This document shows positions 38,160 to 57,163 of a stretch of DNA of 64,000 bases, in pieces. The notes under the pieces were generated by a model. The model was not told where the DNA came from, did not search any database, and was given only the letters and a program-made list of their open reading frames with translations. The stretch lies in the NCBI GenBank assembly GCA_013140705.1, contig JABFSH010000021.1, positions 1 through 64,000 of the forward strand, read 5' to 3'. A program made the position numbers and the translations under genes. Every line of letters starts with the position of its first letter. Within the stretch, counting starts at the first letter, position 1. This DNA comes from Methylococcaceae bacterium (GTDB lineage Bacteria; Pseudomonadota; Gammaproteobacteria; Methylococcales; Methylomonadaceae).

Positions 38160-39497
38160 CTAAACATCCACCTGCACCCTATTCTGTCCACGTCTAAACA
38201 GCATAAATCGCCAATGCCGTTTAAAATCAAACAAAATCGAAAAATAATACAAACCTTTAAATAAGTTCAGATAAAATTTTATCTGCTGATTGCCGGCATC
38301 GCCCGCCAATACGGATATAACAGCCGATTTCATTTTTTGCTTGACAGGATGCAGGCGTTTTTCGTCTGAAGACATCAACAATTTATGTAAGGCCGGACTG
38401 TTGAAGCGATAGATAAACCAGCAAAACGCGCTAATTTCCTTCTGCATCGATAGCTGAAGTGTTGAGGCCAGTTGAACTTGCTGGCTTGAATCTTTTAATA
38501 CGGTGTCAACGTAATCTGCTCCTTTAACAGCTCCCTGCATGGCCAGATAGACGCCGCTGGAAAAAACCGGATCGACAAACGCGTAGGCATCACCGATCAA
38601 AAGATAGCCGTCACCTGCCATTCGACTGGCTGAATAGGAGTAATTGCCTGTTGCTTGCGCATCGCCTGCCAGACTGGCATTTTTGAAGCGGTCTGCCACT
38701 TCCGGGAGCAAAAACAAGGTGTGTTGAAGAAATTCATTCAACGGTTTATCCCTGGTTTTCAGGTATTCCGGCCAGCACACGCAACCCGCGCTCATCATGC
38801 CGTCTTTTAACGGAATCAGCCACATCCAGCCGTGTTCGAACCAATAAATGCTGATATTTCCTTCGTCGCTGCCAGTTCGACGTTCGACCTGATGAAAATG
38901 TCCGAAAATGGCCGCCATTTGGTGATCAGGGTTTTTCTTTTTGGTGTTTAATTTCTTCGATAGAAAGGTATCCCGTCCCGAGGCATCAACAACATATTGG
39001 CAATGGAATGCCGTGCTTGCGCCAGTCTCGTCGCTGGCCCACACTTTTTTCACTGCTTGATCAAGATCGACTCTATTGACGGTGATGCCCTCAAAAGCCT
39101 TCACCCCCTTGTCTTTACAATTTCTGAACAGCAACTCGTCAAACTCCGAACGTCTGACTTCGTAGGCAAACGGAAAGCTTTTATCGGCGGCTTTGGCAAA
39201 ATAAAAAATATCTTGCTCGGGCGCCGTCACTGGCGAGTTAAATTCAGCCGCATATTTTTTGATGCCGATGCCGGCGACTTTATCCAGCACACCCAGTCTT
39301 TCCAGAATCGGCATATTCATCGGCAATAAGGACTCTCCGATATGAAATCGAGGGTGATGGGCTTTTTCCAGCAAACACACGGACCAGCCCTTTTCGGATA
39401 ACAGGCTTGAAATTGTCGTTCCGGCGGGTCCGCCGCCGATCACAACCACATCGTAAGTGGCAATGACTTCGTCGAGTGAATCGTCATGTGTTGTCAT
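38160..39497 (-). CDS. Flavin-dependent halogenase-like oxidoreductase
   Basis: 445 aa. N-terminal FAD fold VVVIGGGPAGTTISSLLSEKG, then HIGESLLP, and the halogenase signature WxWxIP as WMWLIP at residues 224-229. The second flavin motif is LLIGDAYAFVDPVFSSGV. These are the marks of the CmlS-like halogenase/oxidoreductase family; the WxWxIP motif is also kept by some relatives that do not halogenate, so halogenation is not proven. It is the last gene of a tightly packed aryl-polyene-like operon, 3 bp after fabG. Xanthomonadin (brominated aryl polyene) clusters contain a comparable enzyme, so a halogenated polyene is a reasonable hypothesis. A geranylgeranyl-reductase-type role is the alternative. 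Confidence 0.75.
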   Translation of the reverse strand: MTTHDDSLDEVIATYDVVVIGGGPAGTTISSLLSEKGWSVCLLEKAHHPRFHIGESLLPMNMPILERLGVLDKVAGIGIKKYAAEFNSPVTAPEQDIFYFAKAADKSFPFAYEVRRSEFDELLFRNCKDKGVKAFEGITVNRVDLDQAVKKVWASDETGASTAFHCQYVVDASGRDTFLSKKLNTKKKNPDHQMAAIFGHFHQVERRTGSDEGNISIYWFEHGWMWLIPLKDGMMSAGCVCWPEYLKTRDKPLNEFLQHTLFLLPEVADRFKNASLAGDAQATGNYSYSASRMAGDGYLLIGDAYAFVDPVFSSGVYLAMQGAVKGADYVDTVLKDSSQQVQLASTLQLSMQKEISAFCWFIYRFNSPALHKLLMSSDEKRLHPVKQKMKSAVISVLAGDAGNQQIKFYLNLFKGLYYFSILFDFKRHWRFMLFRRGQNRVQVDV

Positions 39498-39500
39498 GAT

Positions 39501-40226
39501 TTATGCCATTGCCCCATTAATATTGATAATTTGTCCCGATATATACGCTGCGTCATCGGAACACAGAAAGGCCGCCAGAGCGGCCACCTCGTCGGCGGTT
39601 CCTGCCCGTTGCATCGGAACGATTTTTTTGATGAGTTCCTTATCGAAATTGCCTTGGCTCATACTACCTTCAATAATGCCAGGCGCAATCGCGTTAACGG
39701 TAATTCGCCGCGATGCCAATTCCAGAGCCAGAGCCTTGGTCGCCCCATGCAGCGCCGATTTGGCGGCCGAGTAATTGGCCTGACCGCGATTGCCCATGAC
39801 GCCGGCAAGCGATGACATGTTGATGATTCGCCCCCAGCGACTGCGTATCATCGGCATCAGTAACGGCTGTGTAACATTGTAAAAACCGTTCAATGACACA
39901 TCGATCACCTGAGACCATTGTTCGCGGTTCATGCCCGCCAAAGGCGCATCGCGATGAATACCGGCATTATTGACAATAATCTGTATGGGCTCAGAAGCCG
40001 TTAACTCAGTCAGTAGCCGTTGCGTTTCTTCGCCGTCTGTCACATCAAACGCAATCGCTTCAGCTGATCCACCTCTCTGTTTAATAGTTTCAACAATGAC
40101 CAAGGCCTTGTCGATTTGACGGTTGCCATGGACAATGACATGAATGTTTTGTTGTGCCAGACGATAGCAGATTGCACTACCGATATCGCCACTACCGCCG
40201 GTGATCAGCGCTTTTCTTAAATTCAT
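39501..40226 (-). CDS. FabG-like 3-oxoacyl-ACP reductase (ApeQ-like)
   Basis: 241 aa short-chain dehydrogenase. The NADP-binding motif is ITGGSGDIGSAICYRLA, with NNAGIHRD, catalytic Ser in INMSSLAGVMGNRGQ and YSAAKSAL (Tyr and Lys), and the C-terminal SGQIININGAM. It would reduce 3-ketoacyl-ACP during polyene or fatty-acyl chain growth. It starts with an ATGA overlap to the dehydratase gene. In aryl-polyene loci this reductase (ApeQ) follows ApeP, as here. Confidence 0.88.
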   Translation of the reverse strand: MNLRKALITGGSGDIGSAICYRLAQQNIHVIVHGNRQIDKALVIVETIKQRGGSAEAIAFDVTDGEETQRLLTELTASEPIQIIVNNAGIHRDAPLAGMNREQWSQVIDVSLNGFYNVTQPLLMPMIRSRWGRIINMSSLAGVMGNRGQANYSAAKSALHGATKALALELASRRITVNAIAPGIIEGSMSQGNFDKELIKKIVPMQRAGTADEVAALAAFLCSDDAAYISGQIININGAMA

Positions 40227-40657
40227 AAATTGACAACGGTTGTTCGTGCATCAAATAAGAGTGTATCGTCAGCATCGCGAATTCTGATTGCGTAGACAGC
40301 ACCATTGGAGATTTTCAGCTCGGCTGAGGCGGTAATGACAAGATCATTGGTTACTTCATCCAGCGTGTCGATATAAAAATGAACGCCTCGTACGGCAGCA
40401 AGAAAGCCGGGCGCCGCTTGTCCAGTTAGCAGACCACCATGGATTGCCGTCGATTGCGCACCGTACTCAATCAGATGCAGCGCCGATAACTGACCATTCA
40501 GCCGCAAGGGATTATCGTGCATTAGATGGGTTCGCGTCCGACAAACAATCTGCTGGCTGGTCCAGGAATCGACGCTATCAATTAAAATCATTCGGCCCGC
40601 ATGCGGAATCAAATAAGCAAACTGATGCTGCGCTAAGGACTTATTGCCGCTCGTCAT
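40223..40657 (-). CDS. ApeP-like 3-hydroxyacyl-ACP dehydratase
   Basis: 144 aa hot-dog protein. PHAGRMILIDSV near the start and SALHLIEYGAQSTAIHGGLL in the helix carry the conserved Glu-Tyr and His residues of ApeP-type dehydratases. It would dehydrate 3-hydroxyacyl-ACP to the trans-enoyl form retained in a polyene chain. It overlaps the acyltransferase gene upstream by 17 bp and fabG downstream by 4 bp. Confidence 0.82.
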   Translation of the reverse strand: MTSGNKSLAQHQFAYLIPHAGRMILIDSVDSWTSQQIVCRTRTHLMHDNPLRLNGQLSALHLIEYGAQSTAIHGGLLTGQAAPGFLAAVRGVHFYIDTLDEVTNDLVITASAELKISNGAVYAIRIRDADDTLLFDARTTVVNL

Positions 40658-41552
40658 CTTGCCAGTAATCGTAAAAATTAAACCAGTTATAAGGCCGGTC
40701 TAGGATATGTTTTTCTAGTATATCAGCGTATTTTTGTGTCCACTGCTGAATCTCTTGCTGCCGGTTCTTTCTGCTCAGCGTTATATGTTCGGCCAGAAGT
40801 TCAAAATGAATTTCATAGTGATTACCCCCGGTATAAATGCCGAAGAATGTTATCAAAGGCACTTTAAGCGACGCCGCTATCAATACGGGTGCAGTGGGCA
40901 ATTGCACCTCTGAGCCCAGCAAAGTGCACCGAACGGTTTTTTCCTTGGCGTCGCCGGAAATACGATCGCCCAGCATACCCACGGCATATCCGCTGTCGAC
41001 AGCTTCTTTTACTTTCAGCAGACTGTTGACCGTATCAGACATGGTCATGATGGTTTCCGCAATAGATGGGTTAAGCGCATGCAGCGCCTGCATGACCATG
41101 GGGGTTTGCCCTTCATGCATCAGGATTTTTATTGGTAAGGGACATTTTTTCAAGGCATAACTGCGCAAGACCTCGAAACTGCCGACATGGCTACCCAGCA
41201 AAATACAGCCCATGCCTGACCGAGAAAATTTCAATGGCGTATTTTCAGCTGGAAAGGTTATGTGTAATTTATCAAACTGTCCGGTAATCAGATATACCCT
41301 ATCCAAAATCGTCGATGCAAAACAGTGAATATGCTTCGCGACATCGAACCAACCGGGAGGCCTGGCAAGAACTCGCTTTAAATAAAGGCGAGAAGCCCTG
41401 CGTTGCAGGCTTGCAAAAATCAGATAATACAGCGTGATCGGATACAAAATGCAACGGGCAACTGGACGTCCCAAGTGCAGGGCGATCCATCGGATTGTTT
41501 TTAGCGCCAGAGGGGTGCTGTATTCTTTCTGTGCTTGCCAGTCGCTACTCAT
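40641..41552 (-). CDS. LpxL/LpxM-family lipid acyltransferase
   Basis: About 303 aa. The ATG at 41552 (MSSDWQAQKE) overlaps the preceding stop by 8 bp; an upstream frame extends to 41594. A hydrophobic N-terminal region (about 30-50) anchors it at the inner membrane. The HTRB/lauroyltransferase core has GSHVGSFEVLRSYAL with the catalytic-type His and, four residues on, Glu (HxxxxE pattern), then GDR further on. Such proteins in aryl-polyene clusters are thought to transfer the finished acyl chain to a lipid or glycan carrier. Confidence 0.82.
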   Translation of the reverse strand: MSSDWQAQKEYSTPLALKTIRWIALHLGRPVARCILYPITLYYLIFASLQRRASRLYLKRVLARPPGWFDVAKHIHCFASTILDRVYLITGQFDKLHITFPAENTPLKFSRSGMGCILLGSHVGSFEVLRSYALKKCPLPIKILMHEGQTPMVMQALHALNPSIAETIMTMSDTVNSLLKVKEAVDSGYAVGMLGDRISGDAKEKTVRCTLLGSEVQLPTAPVLIAASLKVPLITFFGIYTGGNHYEIHFELLAEHITLSRKNRQQEIQQWTQKYADILEKHILDRPYNWFNFYDYWQDDERQ

Positions 41553-41853
41553 GCATACGCTCAATCGTGAAGGTTCCAACCACCAGTTTTTCATCGGCGC
41601 TATCGCATTCGAATTTAATATGTGATGACGATGTCTGTATTAATTTAACCGTAAAAACCGTCCCGGGAAGCAAGGGTTTTAAAAATTTGGCCTGCGACAA
41701 TGATCGAATGGCGCACCAGGGACGCCATTCCATCAGCACAGTACGAACATGATCGAGAATCACGACACCCGGAACAATTGGGTTACCGGGAAAATGCCCC
41801 GCAAGGCTGGGATGCGTTGAATCGATACAAAAGCGTTGAATAAACTCAGACAA
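41545..41853 (-). CDS. ApeI-like hot-dog dehydratase
   Basis: 102 aa. It contains HPSLAGHFPGNPIVPGVVIL, the conserved FabA/FabZ-type active-site segment with the catalytic His in GHFPGNP. It overlaps the AMP-ligase by 8 bp. With the ApeP-like protein it gives the locus two distinct dehydratases, as in known aryl-polyene clusters. Confidence 0.82.
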   Translation of the reverse strand: MSEFIQRFCIDSTHPSLAGHFPGNPIVPGVVILDHVRTVLMEWRPWCAIRSLSQAKFLKPLLPGTVFTVKLIQTSSSHIKFECDSADEKLVVGTFTIERMHE

Positions 41854-43243
41854 GGGATAATCCTTGAATCAAGTCCTGCAGTTCAGACTGATTTACTTTT
41901 CCAGTCGGCTGCCGCGGCAATTCAGCAACAAAATGGATAATGCGCGGCAAAAAGACGGGATCCATCGACTTTTTTAATTCTGTCAGTATGGCCTTTCTGC
42001 TTGATTCACTGACCACAATGGCTGACAGCCGCTCGTTTTTATAATGCACAAACAGTCCATCATCAATACCGTCGATATTATTTAGGATTAGATTCAATTC
42101 GGCCAGTGATGCCCTTTTGCCCGCAATCTTAATCAGGTCATTCGAGCGCCCCACTATGCTGAATGATTGATCGTCATGCAGCAAGAACCGGTCATCCAGT
42201 TTTATCGGAATATGCAAATGCCCGCCACCCACAACAAAATGGCGTCCTTGCTGCCACAACCGAACGCCAGCATAAGTCTGCCATTGGGTTGAAAGCGCGT
42301 TACGTCTGGACGCAAAGGACAACGTTTCGGTGCTGCCAAACAATTCATACAAGGGCGCATTCAATGTTGCTTCAACCTGCTGCGCCAGGCTTGCAGATAT
42401 CGGAGCCGTTGACGACAGCACGCTTTTAATCGCAGGCCAGATCGTTTTAACGCTGGTACAGGCTTTCAAGTGCGCCGGTGTAGAGACCAGAATACCTGGT
42501 CGATCCAGCGACTTCAAACACCGACTGATGTCTTCCGGATAAAAGGGACGTCTGTCATGGATCGATAATCCGGAAAATAATGGCCAGAAAAACGACGTTT
42601 CCAAACCGTACATATGCTGTGCGGGTACTGTTGAAACCAGTGTTGCCGCTTGTCCGATTAGATTAAAATGCTGTAATGCCAGTTCAGCCCCTGCCTGAAA
42701 TTCGCGCCAGCTCTTGGCAATGGCCTTGGGTTTTCCAGTGCTCCCTGAGGTAAATGAAATCGAAATCGTCCGATTGCTGTCGATAAGGGGCAAAGCGCCC
42801 ATGTCAGCATTGAGGCTGTCATTCGAGATCAAGAAAACATTCGGATCGCCAAATGACAAGTCCGCCGATGCCAATGACATTCCCTGTGAATCCACCAACG
42901 CATCGGTGATGCAATAACTGTCGGCATAAGCAGTCAACAGATCGCTTATCGTTCGGGGACTCTGATTCGGGGGCAATAAAGATACTTGATTCCGGAAAAC
43001 AACCGCCAAATAGGCGACGATAAAAAAATACCGGTTTTGGCAGAGATTGATGGCATAGGCTTTATCCGGTAACTGTTTACTGATCGATAAGGCATGGGCA
43101 AATAAATCACGCCGGCTAATCATGTCCTGCGCGGTAACACAAAATACGGTATCCAGATTATCCTGTAAACAGTCCGGAAGATATACGAGAGTTGATTTGG
43201 ATGTAGTCAAAGCAGAGCTGGGAAATTCGAAATGTAAAAGCAA
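41846..43243 (-). CDS. AMP-dependent acyl ligase (ApeH-like)
   Basis: 465 aa from a TTG at 43243; no in-frame ATG occurs before residue 42, so TTG is likely. The adenylation signature is SISFTSGSTGKPKAIAKS, later YELFGSTETLSFASRR and VGRSNDLIKIAGKRASL, with a C-terminal PTGKVNQSEL carrying the catalytic Lys. In aryl-polyene clusters the ligase (ApeH) activates the aryl starter acid onto an ACP. It is first in the six-gene overlapping run ending at the halogenase-like gene. Substrate not determinable. Confidence 0.83.
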   Translation of the reverse strand: MLLHFEFPSSALTTSKSTLVYLPDCLQDNLDTVFCVTAQDMISRRDLFAHALSISKQLPDKAYAINLCQNRYFFIVAYLAVVFRNQVSLLPPNQSPRTISDLLTAYADSYCITDALVDSQGMSLASADLSFGDPNVFLISNDSLNADMGALPLIDSNRTISISFTSGSTGKPKAIAKSWREFQAGAELALQHFNLIGQAATLVSTVPAQHMYGLETSFFWPLFSGLSIHDRRPFYPEDISRCLKSLDRPGILVSTPAHLKACTSVKTIWPAIKSVLSSTAPISASLAQQVEATLNAPLYELFGSTETLSFASRRNALSTQWQTYAGVRLWQQGRHFVVGGGHLHIPIKLDDRFLLHDDQSFSIVGRSNDLIKIAGKRASLAELNLILNNIDGIDDGLFVHYKNERLSAIVVSESSRKAILTELKKSMDPVFLPRIIHFVAELPRQPTGKVNQSELQDLIQGLSLV

Positions 43244-43298
43244 ACGTTAAGTTAACGAGCTCCGGCAATACCGGAGATGGTTAAAAATGAGGTCAAAT

Positions 43299-44069
43299 TC
43301 ATTTATAAGCGGGCAAATTTAGCATGTCATCCAGCCTGACAATCTTATAGTCATTGGCGATCACTTGTTTAATGAAGCCGGGTAAAATGGCCAATGTGGT
43401 TTTATTGGTATCATGAAACAAATAGACAGCGCCTGGCTTTAAGGAATTCATTGCTCTTTTCAGTAATTTTTCTTCATCGCTGATCATCGTATCCAGCGAA
43501 CGGGCACTCCAGCCCACAGAAATATAGTTGCCTAGCCTTATAGCCTTATTAAGCCAGGGATTCGTAACGCCAAATGGCGGCCTAAAAAGCCTGGGTTGCA
43601 AGCCGATCAGGTTTTGCACCACTGCGTCCATACATTTTAAATCTTTAAGCATGGGCTTGCTAAAAAAGAAATCAAACAGCAAATGATGACAGTAGCTATG
43701 ATTGCCAATCAAATGTCCTTGCCGGTGAATTTGTTGAAAGACGCCTTCTCGCGCCAGTATGTTTTTACCGATACAAAAAAATGCCGCTTTTATTTGTTGC
43801 TCTTTCAAAATTTGTAATATTTCCAGTGTATAGTCGCTGGGACCGTCATCGAAACTTAGCGCGCAAACTTTGTCGGTGGTGGCTTTAGCACAGATACTTT
43901 CAGTGAAAAAATTGGCCTCTATATTAAATACGCCATAAAAAAAGATAACAGAATACAGTAAATATAAAACCAGGTAGGCATAAGCAGAAATACCGTAATA
44001 TAAGTCTGAACCGAAGGCTATTATCAGCAATACACTAAAAATTTTGTTGGTATTGGAAAAATTTAACAT
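43299..44069 (-). CDS. Polysaccharide deacetylase (NodB-like)
   Basis: About 256 aa from the ATG at 44069; a TTG at 44093 is possible. One or two N-terminal membrane helices (about 7-50) precede the NodB domain: SFDDGPSDYT (catalytic base and metal Asp), GNHSYCHH (metal His pair), RPPFG and LFHDT. It removes N-acetyl or O-acetyl groups from glycans at the envelope. It lies 55 bp upstream of the AMP-ligase in the same direction. A deacetylase is not a standard aryl-polyene gene, so it may modify the glycan part of the product (inference). Confidence 0.85.
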   Translation of the reverse strand: MLNFSNTNKIFSVLLIIAFGSDLYYGISAYAYLVLYLLYSVIFFYGVFNIEANFFTESICAKATTDKVCALSFDDGPSDYTLEILQILKEQQIKAAFFCIGKNILAREGVFQQIHRQGHLIGNHSYCHHLLFDFFFSKPMLKDLKCMDAVVQNLIGLQPRLFRPPFGVTNPWLNKAIRLGNYISVGWSARSLDTMISDEEKLLKRAMNSLKPGAVYLFHDTNKTTLAILPGFIKQVIANDYKIVRLDDMLNLPAYK

Positions 44070-44429
44070 GTATAAGTTAAAGTGAGTTCTCAATCAATTA
44101 AGCTATCGCTTAGTATTCGGTTAAACTGATGTCCAGATTTGTGAATAAATGCTGGTGACTCAAACGGTTCGTTGAGCGGAGTCGAAGCAAATATCCGGCT
44201 TCCACCCAGCCAACGATATCTTTCGGAAACTATTTAACAACCCTATCCTTGTATTGTAGGGACTCCATCGAATTAAAAACAGCGTTTCTAAGCCATTCAT
44301 GCAAAACTCCAACCCTTTCTCCATACCGGATCATTGGCGTTTCAAAACAGGACTGGTTTATCATGATTCCATGTATTTGCCGTTATTCCCGAAAATCATT
44401 AGCTTGACGACTCTTTTCCCGGATGAGAC
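44070..44429. other. Divergent intergenic region, aryl-polyene-like locus
   Basis: About 360 bp separating the deacetylase (minus) from the PlsC-like gene (plus), so it should contain both promoters. It includes GGTTCGTTGAGCGGAGTCG near 44167-44186, which resembles a short repeat commonly dispersed between bacterial genes. No ORF. Confidence 0.45.
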
Positions 44430-45200
44430 TTGATAAAATACGCATATGAATGGCTGTTACTGGCGCTTGGCTTTGTCTATTGGGCCGTTGCCGGCCTCTT
44501 GATCACCGTTATCGGCAGTTTGCTGTACGGCCTGTTACCCAAAGCCTATTCCCTCATCTGCGGACGATTTATCCTGTCACGAGCATTCCGGTTTTTTATC
44601 GGGTCTTTAAAAATGACCGGCCTGCTCATTCTCGAAGATGACGATTTGAGGAAATTGGCAAGCCGATCCGGGGCCATGATTGTTGCGCCCAATCATATTG
44701 CCTTATGGGACGCGGTCTTTATTATTGCTCAAATTCCCGAACTGATCTGTATTATGAAGGGTTCGATATTAAGAAATCCTTTTCTGGGAGGCGGCGCAAG
44801 GCTGGCCGGCTATATTCCCAATGATTCCGCCTCACAGATGTTATTAGCCGCATCGCATCAATTAAAAAATGCCGCCAGACTGCTCTATTTTCCGGAAGGT
44901 ACACGAACCAAGCCCGATGAAGCATGGATTAATCCCTTGACCAACGGCGTTGCAGTGTTGGCAAAATATTCGTCTGCACCTATCATTCCCATCTATATCC
45001 GCAGCAATTCACGAATTTTTGAAAAAGGCCGGCCCTTGTTTCGTAAACCGACGTTTCCACTAAGAATAAGTTTTACAGTTGGAAAACCAATTCAATTCGT
45101 AAAAGGTGAAGACGTGCAAACGTTCAGCAGGCAACTGGAACAACACTATATTGCCGAATTATCTAAACCGCATCCGTTGCGTAGGATGCCAGCTGAATAA
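44430..45200 (+). CDS. PlsC-type 1-acylglycerol-3-phosphate acyltransferase
   Basis: 256 aa. The start must be TTG at 44430: an in-frame TGA is only 4 nt before it, GGATGAG lies just upstream, and no early in-frame ATG exists. An N-terminal membrane helix (about 8-35) is followed by the PlsC block NHIALWDAVF (the H-x4-D catalytic motif) and FPEGTRTKPDEAW. It transfers acyl groups to lysophospholipid-like acceptors at the inner membrane. Similar acyltransferases accompany aryl-polyene clusters. Confidence 0.85.
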   Translation: MIKYAYEWLLLALGFVYWAVAGLLITVIGSLLYGLLPKAYSLICGRFILSRAFRFFIGSLKMTGLLILEDDDLRKLASRSGAMIVAPNHIALWDAVFIIAQIPELICIMKGSILRNPFLGGGARLAGYIPNDSASQMLLAASHQLKNAARLLYFPEGTRTKPDEAWINPLTNGVAVLAKYSSAPIIPIYIRSNSRIFEKGRPLFRKPTFPLRISFTVGKPIQFVKGEDVQTFSRQLEQHYIAELSKPHPLRRMPAE

Positions 45201-48521: not shown

Positions 48522-48665
48522 TGAAAATGAACGTTTATCTATAAACTCTTGCCCGTGGAGCTGATTTCACCCCATCCCTATAGGTCGACCATTAATCCCT
48601 GGGGATGCATATTGATATCGGACGGTCCTCAAATATCGACCATTATTTACCTACGCTTAAAAGAC

Positions 48666-48902
48666 ATGAAACAAAAAATCCGATCCTTTATTTTTGAAGA
48701 AATAATTTTTATCCCAGACCCTGATAAATTTTCCGATGACGACAATTTAATCGAAGCAGGGCTTGATAGCATGGGCATTATGAGGCTGGTAATGTTTATC
48801 GAAGATCGTTTCGGCGTGACTTTGCCGGATGCGGAGATCGACCCTGATAACCTACATTCCCTGAATGCACTGGAACAATGGATACTTCGACACAAAAAAT
48901 GA
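48666..48902 (+). CDS. Free-standing acyl/peptidyl carrier protein
   Basis: 78 aa from the ATG at 48666. The phosphopantetheine site is GLDSMGIMRL with the Ser in the usual place, followed by the acidic helix FIEDRFGVTLPDAEI. It would carry the substrate loaded by the adenylation enzyme downstream, or the growing polyene. It overlaps the start of the condensation-like gene (ATGA), so the two are translationally coupled. Confidence 0.88.
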   Translation: MKQKIRSFIFEEIIFIPDPDKFSDDDNLIEAGLDSMGIMRLVMFIEDRFGVTLPDAEIDPDNLHSLNALEQWILRHKK

Positions 48903-50233
48903 TGGCAAAGCAAACCAGTGAAATGATTCAGCCCCTGAATGTGGCTGACTATTTTACACTGGCAATGGATGATGAAATTCGTCGAAACCAACTGCCCGGC
49001 GGGTTGTGTGGCTTTGCGCTGCAATTGAACGGGCGGCCTGACATCAACAAACTCGCCAGACGCATTGATGAATTCATCACCCGCTTTCCGACCGCATCAG
49101 CCAGCTTGCAACAACGTGGCAAACAATTTTACTGGTGCAGAAGGCCTAAACCCGAACAAATTTTATTTCAGCATCATTGTCCGGAAACGGATAGCGATAC
49201 GGACTTTCAACGAGCAACTATTGTTCAATTGTTTCATCGGCAGGAATCCAGAGAGACTATTGCCCCCATAGAATTTCATCTCATCCTCGGTCAACAAACG
49301 CACTGTTTCCTGATTCGATGGCTACATCCCTTTTGTGATGCAAAAGGGGTTGAATTAATCTTCCGATATCTGTGCACAGATGATCAGGCGCAGCGCGAGC
49401 TTTTCGACACCCCCACAATGGACGCGCTGGTTAATACGCAACTCGGCAAATTTAGATGGTGGCAAAAAATCCATTTGTTCTACAAAGCAAATCGCTATAT
49501 CAACCAGCTGGATCACTTTCAAAGTATTCAGCATGGCCAGTTTCAACTCGCGTCGGACAAACTCAATTTTCTGCCCCATCAATTCAGCCCGGAAGAAACC
49601 GACCTCATTGCGCAACAGGCCCGGCAACACTGTGGATTAACAGGCACCAGTCAGTATTACATCGGCTGCTTTATGCGCGCCTTGCATCAAATGGAACCCG
49701 ATCAGGCAGGCGACGCCTATTGCGTACCCTATGCCTTTAGTTTACGAAAACAGAATGCACTAAGTCCGATGCTGGGCAATCATATAGGTACTTTATTTGC
49801 CCAGGCCCCCAAAGCGCTACTGGCTGGCAGGGAGCAGCTTTTTAGCCATCTGAAACAGCAAAATGCCCAAGCCATCCGGCAACAACTGGATTATGCTTTC
49901 TTACCGGTCATGTGGGCAGCCAGTTGGCTATCGCTGGAAAAATATGGGCGAGAACTGCGCAAATCCTATCAACATGACAGTGAACGCAGTTCCTTCTGGT
50001 TTTCGGATATCGGTCAGTTCAACTTTGATCAGCACAGCTTCTTTAATACCAGTATCACCGGCTTGTTTCATCTCAGTCAGATGTCCAATCCGCCAGGCTT
50101 GGCCTTACTTTGTTGCCAGTACCGGAAACAATTAATTTTGAGTTTTAATTTTATTGAGCCTGTGTTCAGTAAATCCTGGATCAGCCAATTGCAACAAAAA
50201 ATGGCGCAGGAATTACTGGGGCAAACGGAATAG
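48899..50233 (+). CDS. Condensation-domain-like acyltransferase
   Basis: About 444 aa from the ATG at 48899, overlapping the ACP stop; an in-frame ATG at 48878 is possible. It contains an HxxxD active-site motif, HPFCDAKG, at about residues 143-147, in the position expected for condensation, wax-ester-synthase or CoA-acyltransferase superfamily folds. The later SFWFSDIGQFNFDQ and GNHIGTLFA segments also fit that superfamily. It would form an amide or ester between the ACP-bound acyl group and an acceptor. The first of the two His usual in HHxxxDG is replaced (WLHPFCDAKG). Substrates unknown. Confidence 0.75.
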   Translation: MMAKQTSEMIQPLNVADYFTLAMDDEIRRNQLPGGLCGFALQLNGRPDINKLARRIDEFITRFPTASASLQQRGKQFYWCRRPKPEQILFQHHCPETDSDTDFQRATIVQLFHRQESRETIAPIEFHLILGQQTHCFLIRWLHPFCDAKGVELIFRYLCTDDQAQRELFDTPTMDALVNTQLGKFRWWQKIHLFYKANRYINQLDHFQSIQHGQFQLASDKLNFLPHQFSPEETDLIAQQARQHCGLTGTSQYYIGCFMRALHQMEPDQAGDAYCVPYAFSLRKQNALSPMLGNHIGTLFAQAPKALLAGREQLFSHLKQQNAQAIRQQLDYAFLPVMWAASWLSLEKYGRELRKSYQHDSERSSFWFSDIGQFNFDQHSFFNTSITGLFHLSQMSNPPGLALLCCQYRKQLILSFNFIEPVFSKSWISQLQQKMAQELLGQTE

Positions 50234-50245
50234 TTGTCCCATTCC

Positions 50246-51691
50246 ATGAATTTAATCTCAGGTTTTATCAAGCAGTGCCTTGCATCTCCCGAACGACTGG
50301 CCTTCACAGACGAAGAAAAGCAATTAACTTATGAGCAAGTGGCACAAACTTGCCAGCCATTCACGGATTTTTTGAACATGCACCACTGTGCCGGGCAATG
50401 CATAGCGCTAGCCATTGAGCGTGGCATTGATGCGGCTCAAGCCATTGTAAGTATTCTGACTGCGGGAGCCTGTTATTTACCGCTGGATATTAAAAATCCG
50501 GCCAGCCGTTTGAACTACATCATCGATGATGCCCAACCTCGTTATGTGGCGGGGCATGGCGCGTGTCCGGACTGGCTGGCCAATCAGGAGCTATGGCTGG
50601 ATCTGCACCAACTGCAACCTACCCTATCCTTTTCGGCGGAACCCAATGACACGGAGCCGGAAGCTTTGGCCGCCATTCTTTATACCTCCGGTTCAACGGG
50701 CACGCCCAAAGGCGTAGCACTCAGCCATCGGGCGACGCTGAGTTTCGCTGAATGGGCGCGGTCAACATTTGCAATCGCCCCTGAAGACCGCATCGCCAGT
50801 CTCGCGCCGTTTCACTTCGATCTGTCCGTATTCGACCTGTTCAGCAGCCTGTCTGCCGGCGCCAGTGTGCACTTCATGCCCGCCGCTTTATCCTTGGCCC
50901 CTAGCAAATTAACAGCCTGGTTAAATCAAAATGCCATTACTTGCTGGTACACCGTACCCTCTTTACTGTCTTTTATTGCCCTGAAAGGCGCTCTGACAAC
51001 TACGCCATTAAGCAACCTGAAAACCATCCTGTTCGCTGGCGAAGTGTTTCCTACACCGCAATTGATCAAACTGGTCGAGCAGTTGCCAACAACGGAATTT
51101 TTTAACCTGTACGGGCCAACCGAAACCAATGTCTGCAGCTATTGGCCGGTGGATCGATTCCGCTTGCGCGCCAATCAGGCAATTCCGATCGGCATACCGG
51201 CATGCAATGCCCTGCTCAAGATAGATGAAGCAACCGGAGAGTTGCTGGTACAGAGCCCGAACAATTTTTCAGGCTATTGGCAACAAGGCAAACTGGATCG
51301 TTCGCCACTTCGAAATGGCTGGCACCATACCGGCGATAAAGTATCGCGCAATGAACAGAACGAATATTGTTATCACGGACGCCTGGACAGAATGCTCAAA
51401 TGCTCGGGCTATCGCGTCGAACCCGCCGAAATCGAAGCGACGATCAATCGACTGCCCGAGGTTATGCACTGCGCCGTGCTGGGTATCAGTGACCCCACCA
51501 GTGGTCAACGCCCGGTAGCCGCAGTAGTTTTAAAAACCGGCTGCATATTAGCCGACATCATCAAACCCGTGAAAGAAACATTGCCATCTTACATGCAACC
51601 GGCCAAGTTTATCGTGCTGGAAACATTGCCTGTTATGTCAAATGGCAAAACGGATTATCAAGCATTACAGGCAATATTCCAGTCGTATTAG
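50246..51691 (+). CDS. Free-standing adenylation enzyme (NRPS-type AMP ligase)
   Basis: About 481 aa from the ATG at 50246 (a TTG at 50234 is 12 nt upstream). Adenylation core motifs: AAILYTSGSTGTPKGVALSH, FHFDLSVFDLFSS, NLYGPTETNVCSYW, YHGRLDRMLKCSGYRVEPAE and the C-terminal Lys of MSNGKTDYQAL. The Asp of FDLS, which contacts amino-acid amines in NRPS enzymes, is present, so an amino acid is a likely substrate. With the ACP and condensation-like gene it forms a dissociated single NRPS-like module. It is followed by a 380-bp regulatory gap and then the peptide precursor gene. Confidence 0.82.
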   Translation: MNLISGFIKQCLASPERLAFTDEEKQLTYEQVAQTCQPFTDFLNMHHCAGQCIALAIERGIDAAQAIVSILTAGACYLPLDIKNPASRLNYIIDDAQPRYVAGHGACPDWLANQELWLDLHQLQPTLSFSAEPNDTEPEALAAILYTSGSTGTPKGVALSHRATLSFAEWARSTFAIAPEDRIASLAPFHFDLSVFDLFSSLSAGASVHFMPAALSLAPSKLTAWLNQNAITCWYTVPSLLSFIALKGALTTTPLSNLKTILFAGEVFPTPQLIKLVEQLPTTEFFNLYGPTETNVCSYWPVDRFRLRANQAIPIGIPACNALLKIDEATGELLVQSPNNFSGYWQQGKLDRSPLRNGWHHTGDKVSRNEQNEYCYHGRLDRMLKCSGYRVEPAEIEATINRLPEVMHCAVLGISDPTSGQRPVAAVVLKTGCILADIIKPVKETLPSYMQPAKFIVLETLPVMSNGKTDYQALQAIFQSY

Positions 51692-52059: not shown

Positions 52060-52064
52060 AGGAG
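52060..52064 (+). promoter_or_regulatory. Strong ribosome binding site of the precursor
   Basis: AGGAG, 8 nt before the ATG at 52073. It decides the start codon over the in-frame TTG at 52067. Confidence 0.75.
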
Positions 52065-52072
52065 AATTGATC

Positions 52073-52306
52073 ATGAATCAAAAACAAAGCGGTTCTGAAA
52101 AATTACAGCTTCAATGTGGCAAAACCGGCGTGCGCTCGATAGAAGATTTCCAACAGGTGGAAGAACTGCTTGAAGCCAGTGGTGGCTTGGGTGTAAGCGT
52201 TGTGCCCCTTTGGTGGAAATATGGCACGCCCGCAATATTCAATGTAGGTAATGTGCTGAACCCGGCAATCAATCCAGCACAAATCTCGCAAACATTGTTT
52301 AGATAA
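52073..52306 (+). CDS. RiPP precursor peptide with double-glycine leader
   Basis: 77 aa. A charged leader contains SIEDFQQVEELLEASGG, an acidic helix ending in Gly37-Gly38, as cleaved by C39 peptidases. The core is about 39 residues: it begins LGVSVVP, has an aromatic cluster LWWKYG at 46-51, then FNVGNVLNP and NPAQISQTLF, and is rich in Asn, Pro, Gly and Val. No Cys is present in the core, so disulfide or lanthionine chemistry is excluded; the only Cys is in the leader (Cys15). The next gene, 13 bp downstream, is a radical SAM enzyme, and a peptidase-ABC exporter follows. I do not recognise the peptide family. Confidence 0.78.
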   Translation: MNQKQSGSEKLQLQCGKTGVRSIEDFQQVEELLEASGGLGVSVVPLWWKYGTPAIFNVGNVLNPAINPAQISQTLFR

Positions 52307-52319
52307 AGAGGAATAGGCG

Positions 52320-53378
52320 ATGAACAAGAAACAACCGTTAAGATCAACCGGAAATACCCGAGTCATTCAGATTCATCCAAGCCGTTTGTGCAATCTGAGT
52401 TGTCTTCACTGTTATTCTTCGTCATCGCCTCGGGAGCGCGGTGCCTTAAGTGCCGCGCTACTTTGCAATGCACTGACTGATATGGCCGCTGAAGGTTACG
52501 ATTATTTATGTATTTCCGGCGGTGAACCGTTACTGTACAAACCGCTCCCAGACTTGCTGACCCATGCAAAAAACCTTGGCCTTAAAACGGCGATTGCCAG
52601 TAATGGCATGTTGCTGGACGAACAACACCTTACTGTACTCAAAAATGTGGTTGATACCATTGCCATTAGTCTGGATGGTATGCCGGAATCGCACAACCGA
52701 ATGCGAAACTCCAGTTTGGCTTTTGCCAGAATGGCCGCCAATTTGGACAACCTACGCAAGTCCGGCATTAATTTTGGGTTTATATTCACGCTAACCCAAT
52801 ACAATCTGAATGAATTGGACTGGGTGGTCCGCTTCGCATTGGAACAGGAAGCCAAGCTATTACAAATTCACCCTCTGGAAGAAAGCGGCTTTGCCACAGG
52901 TAATTTGCCGGAAGAACGACCGGATCGCATCGAATCGGCCTATGCCTATCTCCTGTGCGAAACACTCAAGGAACAACTAAAAGATCAGCTCTATATACAA
53001 TTGGATTTTGCCAGTCGTCAGGCTTTGACAGCGTATCCCGATATAGTCTATGCCGGCGACACTCTGCCGGAGACTGACGCTCCTCTGGCCGATTGTCTGG
53101 ACTCACTGGTCATTGAACCGGATGGCAGCGTGCTACCTTTGCAATACGGATTTTCAAAGCACTATAGTCTGGGAAATCTGCATTCATCTGATTTTAAACA
53201 ATTGGCTGACGATTGGCGTCGAGAACGAATGAGCGACTTTTATGCCTTGTGCCGCAGCGTGCATCAAAAAGTCACGACACCGGGTAATCCGATGATTTTT
53301 AATTGGGATGAGACATTGAGAACTGCCTCTCATCACAAACCAGCTCAACACCAAGCGATTGCGGTCGGATGGCAGTAA
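52320..53378 (+). CDS. Radical SAM peptide-modifying enzyme
   Basis: 352 aa. The ATG at 52320 follows AGAGGA by 7 nt. The [4Fe-4S] motif is CNLSCLHC (Cys24, Cys28, Cys31), and the glycine-rich SAM site is ISGGEPLL. The C-terminal third resembles the twitch/SPASM region (ADCLDSLVIEPDGSVLPLQY, later FYALCRSVH), but the Cys expected after the 'dG.v.p' turn is absent, so a second cluster is partial or missing. Adjacent to the precursor, it probably makes a carbon-carbon, ether or thioether bond in the core, for example at the Trp-Trp-Lys-Tyr region. The reaction is not determinable from sequence. Confidence 0.82.
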   Translation: MNKKQPLRSTGNTRVIQIHPSRLCNLSCLHCYSSSSPRERGALSAALLCNALTDMAAEGYDYLCISGGEPLLYKPLPDLLTHAKNLGLKTAIASNGMLLDEQHLTVLKNVVDTIAISLDGMPESHNRMRNSSLAFARMAANLDNLRKSGINFGFIFTLTQYNLNELDWVVRFALEQEAKLLQIHPLEESGFATGNLPEERPDRIESAYAYLLCETLKEQLKDQLYIQLDFASRQALTAYPDIVYAGDTLPETDAPLADCLDSLVIEPDGSVLPLQYGFSKHYSLGNLHSSDFKQLADDWRRERMSDFYALCRSVHQKVTTPGNPMIFNWDETLRTASHHKPAQHQAIAVGWQ

Positions 53379-53615
53379 GCAGCAACGCAATGACCTGATC
53401 CATAAACATAGAAAAATCATTTGATCCACGAAAACCAAAAGTAGGCGCCTGTAGCACAACACAAAAGCAGAGAATATTCAACGAGACACCAAGTAGTAGA
53501 TCGCCTCTCAAAGTGTGAAGAACCGGGTAATACAACATGCTGATTTTTCGTGTTTTTCGTGGACTAATAGCGGTTTTCAGGATAAATCCAACTCACACCT
53601 ATCACAACAACAATT

Positions 53616-55817
53616 ATGGCCAAATTTGTCTTTCAAAAACAAATGGACGCAATGGATTGCGGTCCTACCTGTTTACATATGGTGGCACGTCATTACGGGC
53701 GGATTTTGCCCATGGATGAATTAAGAGAAAAATGCAGTTTGACTCGTCTGGGAGTCACACTCGGCGGAATTGCCGATGCTGCCGAAAATTTCCATTTGAA
53801 AACCGTTGCCATCCGGGCCTCGATGCACACCTTGCAGGAAGAAGTCCTGCTACCCTGTATTGCACATTGGCAGCAGAAACATTTTGTTGTCGTTCATGGT
53901 ATCAAAAACAACAGCGTCTTTATTGCCGATCCCGCTTATGGCCTGATCAAATATAGTCGAAAGGAATTCATGGCCGGCTGGCTGAACATGGTCAATCCCG
54001 ATGAAACAGCCGAGGGCATTTTATTGTTGGTCGATACAACACCTGAATTCTATGCCGATCCGGACGTGCAACAAAAAAAGCCAAGAGGACTGGGATTTTT
54101 ATGGCCTTATTTTCGGCCTTACCATTCTCTTTTCATGCAGCTTTTTTTAGGCCTTCTGGTAGGCAGCCTGATTTTACTGGCCTTCCCTTTTCTGACACAA
54201 GCCATGGTCGACTATGGCATCAACTATCACAACCTGGATTTCGTCTATGTGTTGCTGGCAGCGCAACTGACACTGTTTTTGTCACAAACTTCCGTTGATT
54301 TGTTACGCAGCTGGATTCTGTTGCATATCGGCGCAAGAATCAATATCGCGATCATTTCCGATTTTTTAATCAAGCTGATAAAACTGCCCGTCTCGTTCTT
54401 TGATACCAAAATGATTGGCGATCTGTTGCAACGCATTCAGGATCATCATCGCGTTGAAGAATTTCTCTCCTCATCGACTCTGACCACCTTGTTTGCACTG
54501 GTCAACTTTATCGTCTTTGGCGCAGCGCTGGCCTGGTATAATCAGACGATCCTGATGATTTTCGTGAGTAGTATCGCGATGTATGTCACCTGGGTTTTGC
54601 TGTTTATGAAAAAACGGGCAACTCTCGATTATCAGCGTTTTGACCAGGCGTCAAAAACGCAAAGCAGCATGGTGCAACTGATACACGGCATGCAGGAAAT
54701 CAAACTCAACAACTCCGAGCGCCGACGCCGCTGGGAATGGGAACGCATCCAGGTCAGATTATTCAAGGTGTCGGTGAAAAGTCTCGCGCTTTACCAATAT
54801 CAAATGACCGGAGCCAACTTTATTAATGAGCTCAAAAATATCCTGATCTCCTTTTATTGCGCAAAATCCGTCATTGATGGCCACATGACCCTGGGCATGA
54901 TGCTGTCAGTCCAATACATCATTGGTCAGCTGAACGCGCCAATTTCAAATTTCGTCAGTTTTCTACAATCCATGCAGGATGCCCGTATCAGCCTCGGGCG
55001 ACTGGCTGAAATTCATGATCAGAAAAACGAGACGATACCCCAGCCAATGACCCATTTGCTGAGCCAGGATAAAACCATAGTCATAGAAAATGACCTGTGC
55101 TTTCAATACGGACGGAAAAAATCGCCTAAGGTATTGGAAAATCTGAATCTGGTAATTCCTGAAGGCAAAGTGACCGCCATTGTCGGCGCTAGCGGCAGCG
55201 GGAAAACCACGTTACTGAAGCTCTTGATGCGCTTTTATCCACCGACACAGGGCAAAATGCGGGTCGGCAATATTCAATTGAATGACATTGACATGGCCCT
55301 GTGGCGGCAAAAATGCGGCGTGGTCATGCAAAATGGCTTTATTTTTCATGACACGGTTCTGAGGAATATCACCGAATCAGAATCGGAGGGTTTAATAGAT
55401 AAAAACAAACTTAACCAGGCCATTGCAATAGCCAATTTAGGTGAATTAATCGATACACTCCCGAATGGTTTGAATACCGAGATTGGCGCCAACGGCATAT
55501 CATTGAGCGGCGGACAAAATCAGCGCATTCTAATTGCACGAGCCGTTTACAAAAATCCGGATTATCTGTTTTTTGATGAAGCGACCAGCGCTCTGGATGC
55601 AAAAAACGAGCGGGTCATTATGGAAAACCTGCAGGCCTTCTATCAGGGCCGCACCGTTGTTGTGATCGCCCATCGCTTAAGTACGGTAAAAAATGCCGAC
55701 CAGATCGTTGTACTCGATAGGGGCAAAGTGGTTGAAACCGGTAATCACGAACAATTGACCACATTAAAAGGTGTCTACTACAACCTGGTAAGCAATCAAC
55801 TGGAGTTGGGACAATAG
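53616..55817 (+). CDS. C39 peptidase-containing ABC transporter (PCAT)
   Basis: 733 aa. N-terminal C39 peptidase: MDAMDCGPTCL with catalytic Cys15, then His89 in HFVVVHGI and Asp105 in IADPA. A six-helix membrane domain (about 155-460) follows, then the ATPase: Walker A GASGSGKTT at 524-532, signature LSGGQ at 630-634, and Walker B YLFFDEATSALD. It cleaves a peptide after Gly-Gly and exports the mature product; its obvious partner is the 77-aa precursor. It lies 237 bp after the radical SAM gene and 2 bp before the adaptor gene. Confidence 0.92.
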   Translation: MAKFVFQKQMDAMDCGPTCLHMVARHYGRILPMDELREKCSLTRLGVTLGGIADAAENFHLKTVAIRASMHTLQEEVLLPCIAHWQQKHFVVVHGIKNNSVFIADPAYGLIKYSRKEFMAGWLNMVNPDETAEGILLLVDTTPEFYADPDVQQKKPRGLGFLWPYFRPYHSLFMQLFLGLLVGSLILLAFPFLTQAMVDYGINYHNLDFVYVLLAAQLTLFLSQTSVDLLRSWILLHIGARINIAIISDFLIKLIKLPVSFFDTKMIGDLLQRIQDHHRVEEFLSSSTLTTLFALVNFIVFGAALAWYNQTILMIFVSSIAMYVTWVLLFMKKRATLDYQRFDQASKTQSSMVQLIHGMQEIKLNNSERRRRWEWERIQVRLFKVSVKSLALYQYQMTGANFINELKNILISFYCAKSVIDGHMTLGMMLSVQYIIGQLNAPISNFVSFLQSMQDARISLGRLAEIHDQKNETIPQPMTHLLSQDKTIVIENDLCFQYGRKKSPKVLENLNLVIPEGKVTAIVGASGSGKTTLLKLLMRFYPPTQGKMRVGNIQLNDIDMALWRQKCGVVMQNGFIFHDTVLRNITESESEGLIDKNKLNQAIAIANLGELIDTLPNGLNTEIGANGISLSGGQNQRILIARAVYKNPDYLFFDEATSALDAKNERVIMENLQAFYQGRTVVVIAHRLSTVKNADQIVVLDRGKVVETGNHEQLTTLKGVYYNLVSNQLELGQ

Positions 55818-55819
55818 CC

Positions 55820-57163
55820 ATGCCGCATCTTAGCCCCTATGCAAATCCAGAAACCTTGGCACAGCCGACTTATGACAAGCTGGAAATCCTGGGCGATTAC
55901 AGTATGTACACCCTGGAATTGCTTGGAAAACCACCCGCCTGGATTTTGCGCTGGGGCGGCACCGTGATTTTGACGCTTATCATGGCCATTATTTTATTGT
56001 CCTGGATTGTGAAATATCCAGACATCGTGTCTGCCAAAGTCACCGTCACCACGCCCATTCCTCCAGCCAGTCTGGTGGCGCGCCAAAGCGGGAAGCTACA
56101 TTGGCTGAAAAGTAACAACCATCAGCAGGTCAAAAAAAATGACTTGCTTGCAGTTATTGAAAGTTCCGCCAACTTCAATGATATAGTGCAACTGAAAGAA
56201 TGGTTAAAGAACTATAGCCCTCATCAAGTAGATGTTGCATACCTGGCAACCCTTCCGCAGAATCTTAAACTGGGCGACATTCAGAATCAATTTGCACAAT
56301 TCCAGAAACAGCTCAATGAAATGCTGTTTTTTTTAACTTCAAACCCGCTTGCAAAGAAAATAGTCCTCAATCGCAAAAAACAGCAGCAACTCGAGGCGAT
56401 GTTGAACAAATTTCAACAACAGGCAACCATCCTTCGGAGTGAAAATACCCTACTGGATAAAAACCTGCAACGCTTTCAACAACTGCAAACCAAACAACTG
56501 ATCTCGGCCAGCAACGTCGATGAAAAACAGATAAGTCTGCTCAACAATCGTCGGCAGCAAGAACAACTCAGCGTGGAGGCGTCAAGAACACAAATCGAAC
56601 TGACCAACTTAAGCACCGAATTGAATGAATTGAACCAGGTTGATGCAAACAAACGCGAATCCTTCAAACTGAATCTGGCTGAAGCCTACCAGGCCCTGTT
56701 GACAAGTTTAAGTCTGTGGGAAAAAAACTATCTGCTGACATCTCCTATTGAGGGCCGTTTGGTGCTGTCCAAATTCTGGGGAGAATTCCAGGTCGTCAAT
56801 GTCGGCGAAGAAGTCGTCACAATCGTACCTTTTGAAAAACAGCCCATACTGGCCAAAATGAAAATGCCTCTAGAAAATTCCGGCAAGGTTAAAACAGGCC
56901 AGAAACTTTTAATTAAGCTGGCAGGTTATCCGTATCAGGAATATGGCCAGATTGTCAGCAAGATAAACTCCATTTCGCTAGTGCCGAGAGAGAATATGTA
57001 CACGGTCGACGCCATTCTGCCTAACCCGCTGGTCACCAGCTATAAGAAAACACTGAGCTTCCACCAGGAAATGCAGGGGCAGGCTGAAATCGTGACTGAA
57101 GATATTCGATTACTGGAAAGAGTCTTTTACCAGTTGCGGAAGGTATTGAAAAAAGCGGAATAG
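55820..57163 (+). CDS. HlyD-family secretion adaptor
   Basis: 447 aa. A single N-terminal membrane helix (about 49-66) leads to a barrel-sandwich domain split by a long coiled coil (about 165-280, rich in Gln, Leu and Asn), then the beta-barrel (PIEGRLVLSKFWGEFQVVNVGEEV). It connects the PCAT exporter to an outer-membrane TolC-type channel, which is not encoded here. The last gene of the peptide operon; a terminator-like hairpin is 150 bp downstream. Confidence 0.9.
   Translation: MPHLSPYANPETLAQPTYDKLEILGDYSMYTLELLGKPPAWILRWGGTVILTLIMAIILLSWIVKYPDIVSAKVTVTTPIPPASLVARQSGKLHWLKSNNHQQVKKNDLLAVIESSANFNDIVQLKEWLKNYSPHQVDVAYLATLPQNLKLGDIQNQFAQFQKQLNEMLFFLTSNPLAKKIVLNRKKQQQLEAMLNKFQQQATILRSENTLLDKNLQRFQQLQTKQLISASNVDEKQISLLNNRRQQEQLSVEASRTQIELTNLSTELNELNQVDANKRESFKLNLAEAYQALLTSLSLWEKNYLLTSPIEGRLVLSKFWGEFQVVNVGEEVVTIVPFEKQPILAKMKMPLENSGKVKTGQKLLIKLAGYPYQEYGQIVSKINSISLVPRENMYTVDAILPNPLVTSYKKTLSFHQEMQGQAEIVTEDIRLLERVFYQLRKVLKKAE

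Follow-up and report, generated by a model that had tools for sequence, protein, structure and literature searches.

A radical SAM RiPP-type operon with its own C39 exporter in methanotrophs and some other Gammaproteobacteria: a candidate peptide family with an apparently cluster-less SPASM-fold maturase

Introduction

The locus described here raises the question of whether a short peptide gene, a radical SAM (rSAM) gene and a dedicated exporter make up a RiPP system that has escaped description and, if so, which reaction its enzyme would carry out. It lies in the window, that is, the whole stretch of 64,000 nucleotides that was analysed. The host carries three genes of PF02461 (particulate methane/ammonia monooxygenase subunit A) and is presumably a methanotroph of the Methylococcales type. 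Methanobactins are the best-known peptide products of methane oxidisers, and the operon would add a new exported peptide family from these organisms. Many SPASM-fold peptide-modifying rSAM enzymes rely on auxiliary iron-sulfur clusters; if the proposal made below is true, a SPASM fold kept without its cluster cysteines would show how rSAM enzymes switch reaction type.

The operon and its precursor gene

The operon consists of four genes, whose functions have been assigned by homology, and its features are as follows.

52060..52065, + strand: AGGAGA, ribosome-binding site of the precursor gene by sequence, seven bases before the ATG at 52073
52073..52306 (ATG to stop), + strand: precursor peptide of 77 aa, with a 38-aa leader ending in Gly37-Gly38 and the 39-aa core LGVSVVPLWWKYGTPAIFNVGNVLNPAINPAQISQTLFR
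52073..52186, + strand: precursor leader, with the N-terminal block K-x-x-G-S-E-K-L-x-x-x-C and the processing site E-E-x-L-x-A-x-G-G
52214..52231, + strand: core motif W48-K-Y-G-T-P53, an instance of [W/F]-x-x-G-x-P and the proposed modification region
52320..53378, + strand: putative radical SAM maturase of 352 aa, with CX3CX2C at Cys24/28/31, a degenerate SPASM region and Cys311
53616..55817, + strand: C39-peptidase/ABC exporter of 733 aa (Pfam; catalytic-domain residues by sequence)
55820..57163, + strand: HlyD-type periplasmic adaptor of 447 aa (Pfam)

The original prediction of a compact operon of precursor, rSAM enzyme, C39-ABC exporter and HlyD protein agrees with these data, as all the reading frames are present where it had placed them and Pfam gives matches above cut-off for Radical_SAM (8.7e-22) in the enzyme, for Peptidase_C39 (3.7e-35), ABC_membrane and ABC_tran in the exporter, and for HlyD_3 in the adaptor. 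The 77-aa precursor with its Gly-Gly leader, the 13 bases between the precursor stop and the rSAM start, and a core that is free of Cys and carries LWWKYG were likewise found as predicted. The core without modification has a monoisotopic mass of 4279.33 Da. The C39 domain of the exporter possesses Q9 and C15 (QMDAMDCGPTC), with downstream His and Asp in the segment HFVV...ADP. None of the PqqD/RRE models of Pfam and NCBIfam matched the enzyme or the operon, although an overly divergent RRE could escape them; a PlpY-like second gene is absent from the operon, and the promoter scan stayed at chance level.

The precursor is judged to be a real gene because homologous precursors with an identical start stand immediately before the rSAM gene in seven further genomes, because a similar ribosome-binding site precedes several of them (of the AGGAGA type in L021, L022, L023 and L025, and GGAG in L036), and because the leader codons of the window and L020 differ by 14 synonymous versus 3 non-synonymous changes. 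In the alignment of six precursors, 16 of the 19 invariant columns are located in the leader (among them K4, G7, S8, E9, C15, G19, R21, F26, V29-E31, L33, A35, G37, and G38), and all eight precursors, even the distant one of L036, carry Cys15 (52115-52117).

Distribution of the operon

A profile search with the precursor has detected seven positive genomes among 237 of the host's family, with one precursor each. With the rSAM protein, nine genomes were recovered at E <= 1e-25 among 301 of the order, the full-length relatives showing 42-75% identity. In six other genomes of the family (L020, L021, L022, L023, L024, and L025) the order of the four genes is identical to that of the window. An eighth system, L036, has been found in genome G618, from another order within the same class. 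Its precursor reads MSEKIRGSDKLKMQC...EIEQVAGG, and the rSAM gene, 49% identical in product to the window enzyme, starts 33 bases later and is followed by HlyD and then C39-ABC genes, that is, in swapped order, these exporter genes being of a different type and only remotely similar to those of the window. In all eight intact loci, including this one, precursor and rSAM gene are 4-33 bases apart. Since L036 keeps precursor and enzyme but has changed its exporter, precursor and enzyme constitute the linked core of the system. Two other loci appear to be damaged: in L026 (G103) the rSAM gene lies near a contig end, no precursor was found upstream and the locus looks decayed or cut off, and L027 (G001; 1-1000) looks like a decayed operon remnant, its rSAM gene and the C39 exporter gene into which this runs being both truncated.

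No other close system was found in samples of the class (369 genomes) and the phylum (398 genomes), and the scans of genome contigs and viruses returned distant rSAM proteins only. Phage records gave two rSAM matches of about 25% identity, and plasmids gave seven, all at or below 36%, with a negative precursor search. The operon is rare and patchy in distribution. Its flanking genes differ between genera, and genomes within one genus have some in common; this variation by genus indicates that the four-gene unit is self-contained.

Regarding the surroundings of the operon in the window, the upstream carrier-protein, condensation-like and adenylation genes (48549-51691) were considered as members of the system and rejected, none of them recurring at the other loci. 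In their own right, these genes, coding for an acyl carrier protein, a 451-aa protein and an adenylation enzyme, look like a small NRPS-like unit; the 451-aa protein has the HxxxDxxG-like motif HPFCDAKG and lacks Pfam or NCBIfam matches at E <= 1. Further upstream, the reading frames at 38160-45200 (a flavin enzyme, a FabG-like reductase, a small dehydratase-like, two acyltransferase-like, an AMP-ligase and a polysaccharide deacetylase-like protein) resemble, as judged by reading, an aryl-polyene-type lipid cluster.

A conserved motif in a variable core

The core is far more variable than the leader: between the window and L020, leader identity is 92%, and in the core 13 of 36 aligned residues coincide. 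A single gapped triple, [W/F]-x-x-G-x-P, is nevertheless common to the six distinct cores on which the motif analysis rests, in the versions WKYGTP, WIRGIP, WIYGQP, WRFGMP, FPQGIP, and FPRGIP, and when the cores were shuffled, no common triple arose in any of 3000 sets. The cores share descent, and what this shows is a motif under constraint, not one of independent origin. Conservation confined to the leader had been set beforehand as the refutation of the original prediction; what was found is that the motif is kept in every core. The individual residues that the prediction had emphasized, through the spacings Trp-x-Lys and Trp-x-x-Tyr, did not hold up as key residues, since in the homologues Lys is replaced by Ile, Arg or a Pro context and Tyr by Arg, Phe, or Gln. 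The residues ending at the motif Gly are IRG in L020, RFG in L025, PQG in L024 and PRG in L036, with XYG in the window and L021-L023 only. All the cores present an Omega-x-x motif, as triceptides and daropeptides do, and none has Cys, the donor in sactipeptides and ranthipeptides.

Position with respect to described families

No family of Pfam or NCBIfam covers the precursor, and no paper describing this precursor or enzyme family was found in a literature search that was thin on subscription journals. The best NCBIfam match of the enzyme is NirJ, with 99.5 bits versus a cut-off of 515, and beyond the general Radical_SAM domain it reaches the cut-off of no curated family. The claim of a precursor without a known family has stood, the enzyme being far under the curated family cut-offs, and so has that of an rSAM-RiPP-type operon with its own C39 exporter, conserved in other genomes. 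A short leader/core precursor gene adjoining an rSAM gene, the hallmark of rSAM RiPPs, is present at the eight intact loci, and maturation of the peptide by the rSAM enzyme, presumably on the core, is very probable. Our verdict is that the operon represents a new rSAM-RiPP family, undescribed in the sense of being absent from Pfam, NCBIfam and the searched literature.

The enzyme and its cysteines

The Pfam SPASM model scores 15.7 bits on the enzyme, below the cut-off of 21.5. In the family of the window enzyme, the SPASM element PDGxxxPC reads PDGxxxP-[LVIM]-[QH]-Y-G-F, and across nine aligned enzymes its cysteine is replaced by Leu, Val, Ile, Met, or Glu. The later CxxCxxxxxC set has been lost except for one Cys. 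In this alignment, a small set that includes L039 (28%, from another class of the phylum) and the Mycolicibacterium plasmid L040 (25%), the only invariant cysteines are C24, C28, C31, and C311. An AlphaFold model (mean pLDDT 77, with low confidence around the CX3CX2C loop) has an rSAM/SPASM fold. The fold searches returned generic SPASM/rSAM folds only, the PDB matches being SkfB, SuiB, PqqE, BlsE, and anSME; EpeE was matched in the PDB as well, by sequence and by fold, its structures ranking below SkfB, PqqE, and SuiB. These matches are uninformative on the type of reaction.

Both distant relatives have a neighbor of their own. In L039 (7579-8840, - strand), the rSAM gene, whose product shows an equal loss of cysteines, lies directly after the gene for a protein of about 105 aa that contains FDVCKYGTCWDFEFKG, has no NCBIfam match and may represent another type of substrate or partner. 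In L040 (3542-5068), a 118-aa protein with GTVGPRGPHGPRPHVGVVFG precedes the related rSAM enzyme, which has Cys at the C311 position.

Possible reactions on the core

SuiB and PqqE are reported to require their auxiliary clusters for modifying the substrate, whereas the proteusin epimerases have no cluster besides that of the rSAM domain and depend for epimerisation on one strictly conserved Cys (PMC8326336). From this contrast, the cysteine pattern of the window enzyme favours a redox-neutral step over an oxidative cross-link: the SPASM cluster cysteines are lost but the invariant C311 is kept, so that a redox-neutral reaction seems most likely, and an enzyme with a single cluster, in which Cys311 donates the hydrogen, would fit better than an oxidative cross-linker. 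By analogy, epimerisation of the core peptide, with C311 as the donor, is the reading that we place first, albeit tentatively. Against it, no kinship in sequence with PoyD or EpeE is established for the enzyme; a second cluster is present in EpeE; the proteusin epimerases carry a C-terminal RRE, of which the Pfam and NCBIfam models gave no trace here; one-cluster rSAM enzymes also catalyse other chemistries; and the aligned enzymes are few.

In this reading, the operon would make a secreted ribosomal peptide. The operon encodes no separate recognition protein, and the rSAM enzyme would bind the leader at its conserved N-terminal block and act on the core at [W/F]-x-x-G-x-P. There the 5'-deoxyadenosyl radical would take an alpha-hydrogen from a residue of the motif or close to it, and a hydrogen returned by C311 from the opposite face would leave a D-residue as in the proteusin epimerases. 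The C39 domain of the exporter would then cut after Gly-Gly, and C39-ABC and HlyD, presumably joined by a TolC whose gene lies outside the operon, would export a cationic, Cys-free peptide of about 39 residues, probably a bacteriocin or a signal.

A less likely alternative, second in our order, is a three-residue cyclophane of triceptide type, in which the ring of the motif W/F would be joined to the beta-carbon of position 3 (in WKY, WIR, WIY, WRF, FPQ, or FPR), giving a product lighter by 2 Da. An aromatic residue stands exactly three positions before the invariant Gly in six of six cores, so that the Omega-x-x spacing is conserved, and each residue at position 3 possesses a beta-carbon. Xye-type triceptide operons of Gammaproteobacteria have a similar layout, with GG precursors and exporters, which the operon resembles. 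However, the SPASM cluster cysteines are gone in nine of nine enzymes, auxiliary clusters being reported as essential in SuiB and PqqE (PMC8326336), and among the best 25 NCBIfam matches the only cyclophane maturase is DynA, with 61 bits versus a cut-off of 450. Of the cyclophane- or darobactin-like crosslinks originally predicted, the former are possible though disfavoured by the absent SPASM cysteines, and the darobactin-type W-x-K has been rejected, its Lys giving way to Ile, Arg, or Pro in the homologues.

Somewhat more doubtful is a different radical reaction on the motif, which might take place at the invariant Gly or Pro, or might cut out the residue preceding Gly as a splicease does. 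The invariance of precisely Gly and Pro speaks for it, and the K-Y-G-T-P of the window resembles the known splicease tags, which read L-Y-G-L-P (GGPIRPLYGLPI; PMC10533398). Nevertheless, the splicing described acts on XYG, while the residue before Gly is here Tyr, Arg, Phe, or Gln, and the operon has no second, PlpY-like gene. A spliceotide of the XYG type, attractive on the window alone, has been rejected since Tyr changes to Arg, Phe, or Gln in homologues. Finally, an ordinary class II-type bacteriocin core exported unmodified, with the rSAM enzyme acting on the leader or a different target, would agree with a leader conserved far above the core, with its invariant Cys15 and with the usual export set of GG leader, C39 exporter and HlyD, but is improbable given the motif conserved inside an otherwise free core and the close pairing of precursor and rSAM gene in eight of eight intact loci despite the change of exporter.

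Returning to epimerisation, if it is true, a mass test for core minus H2 would see nothing, while labelling with D2O would reveal the reaction. The small substrate, the clear motif and the single extra cysteine make the operon directly testable.

Comparison with known systems

More broadly, the operon may perhaps stand for a new RiPP class of methanotrophs and some other Gammaproteobacteria, in which a cluster-less SPASM-fold maturase, a Cys-bearing GG leader and a [W/F]-x-x-G-x-P motif modified by single-cluster chemistry (epimerisation or an undescribed reaction) would be combined. The proteusin epimerases PoyD, OspD, and AvpD have an rSAM cluster only and a single strictly conserved extra Cys, the proposed hydrogen donor (PMC8326336), as the sequence suggests here; unlike them, the system has a short precursor whose leader is of the GG type and not nitrile-hydratase-like, and no C-terminal RRE was found. 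In the epipeptides (EpeX/EpeE, YydF/YydG) the precursor is also small, the leader is removed at export and the rSAM gene is adjacent, but EpeE has two clusters, whereas the family of the window enzyme is without a conserved C-terminal cysteine set, and the core differs. With the triceptides (Xye/Grr/Fxs) and with darobactin and dynobactin, likewise rSAM RiPPs, the aromatic-x-x spacing of the core is shared, although their maturases keep the SPASM clusters whose cysteines the window enzyme has lost. Another likeness is that of W-K-Y-G-T-P in the window to the splice tag R-P-L-Y-G-L-P-I of the spliceotides (PlpA/PlpX/PlpY), from which the system departs in its unconserved Tyr, in the absence of a PlpY-like partner and in its GG leader. 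Finally, the Gly-Gly leader, the C39-ABC exporter, the HlyD protein and the variable core are those of class II microcins and GG-leader bacteriocins, from which the operon is set apart by a dedicated rSAM gene right after the precursor and by the extra conserved N-terminal block of the leader.
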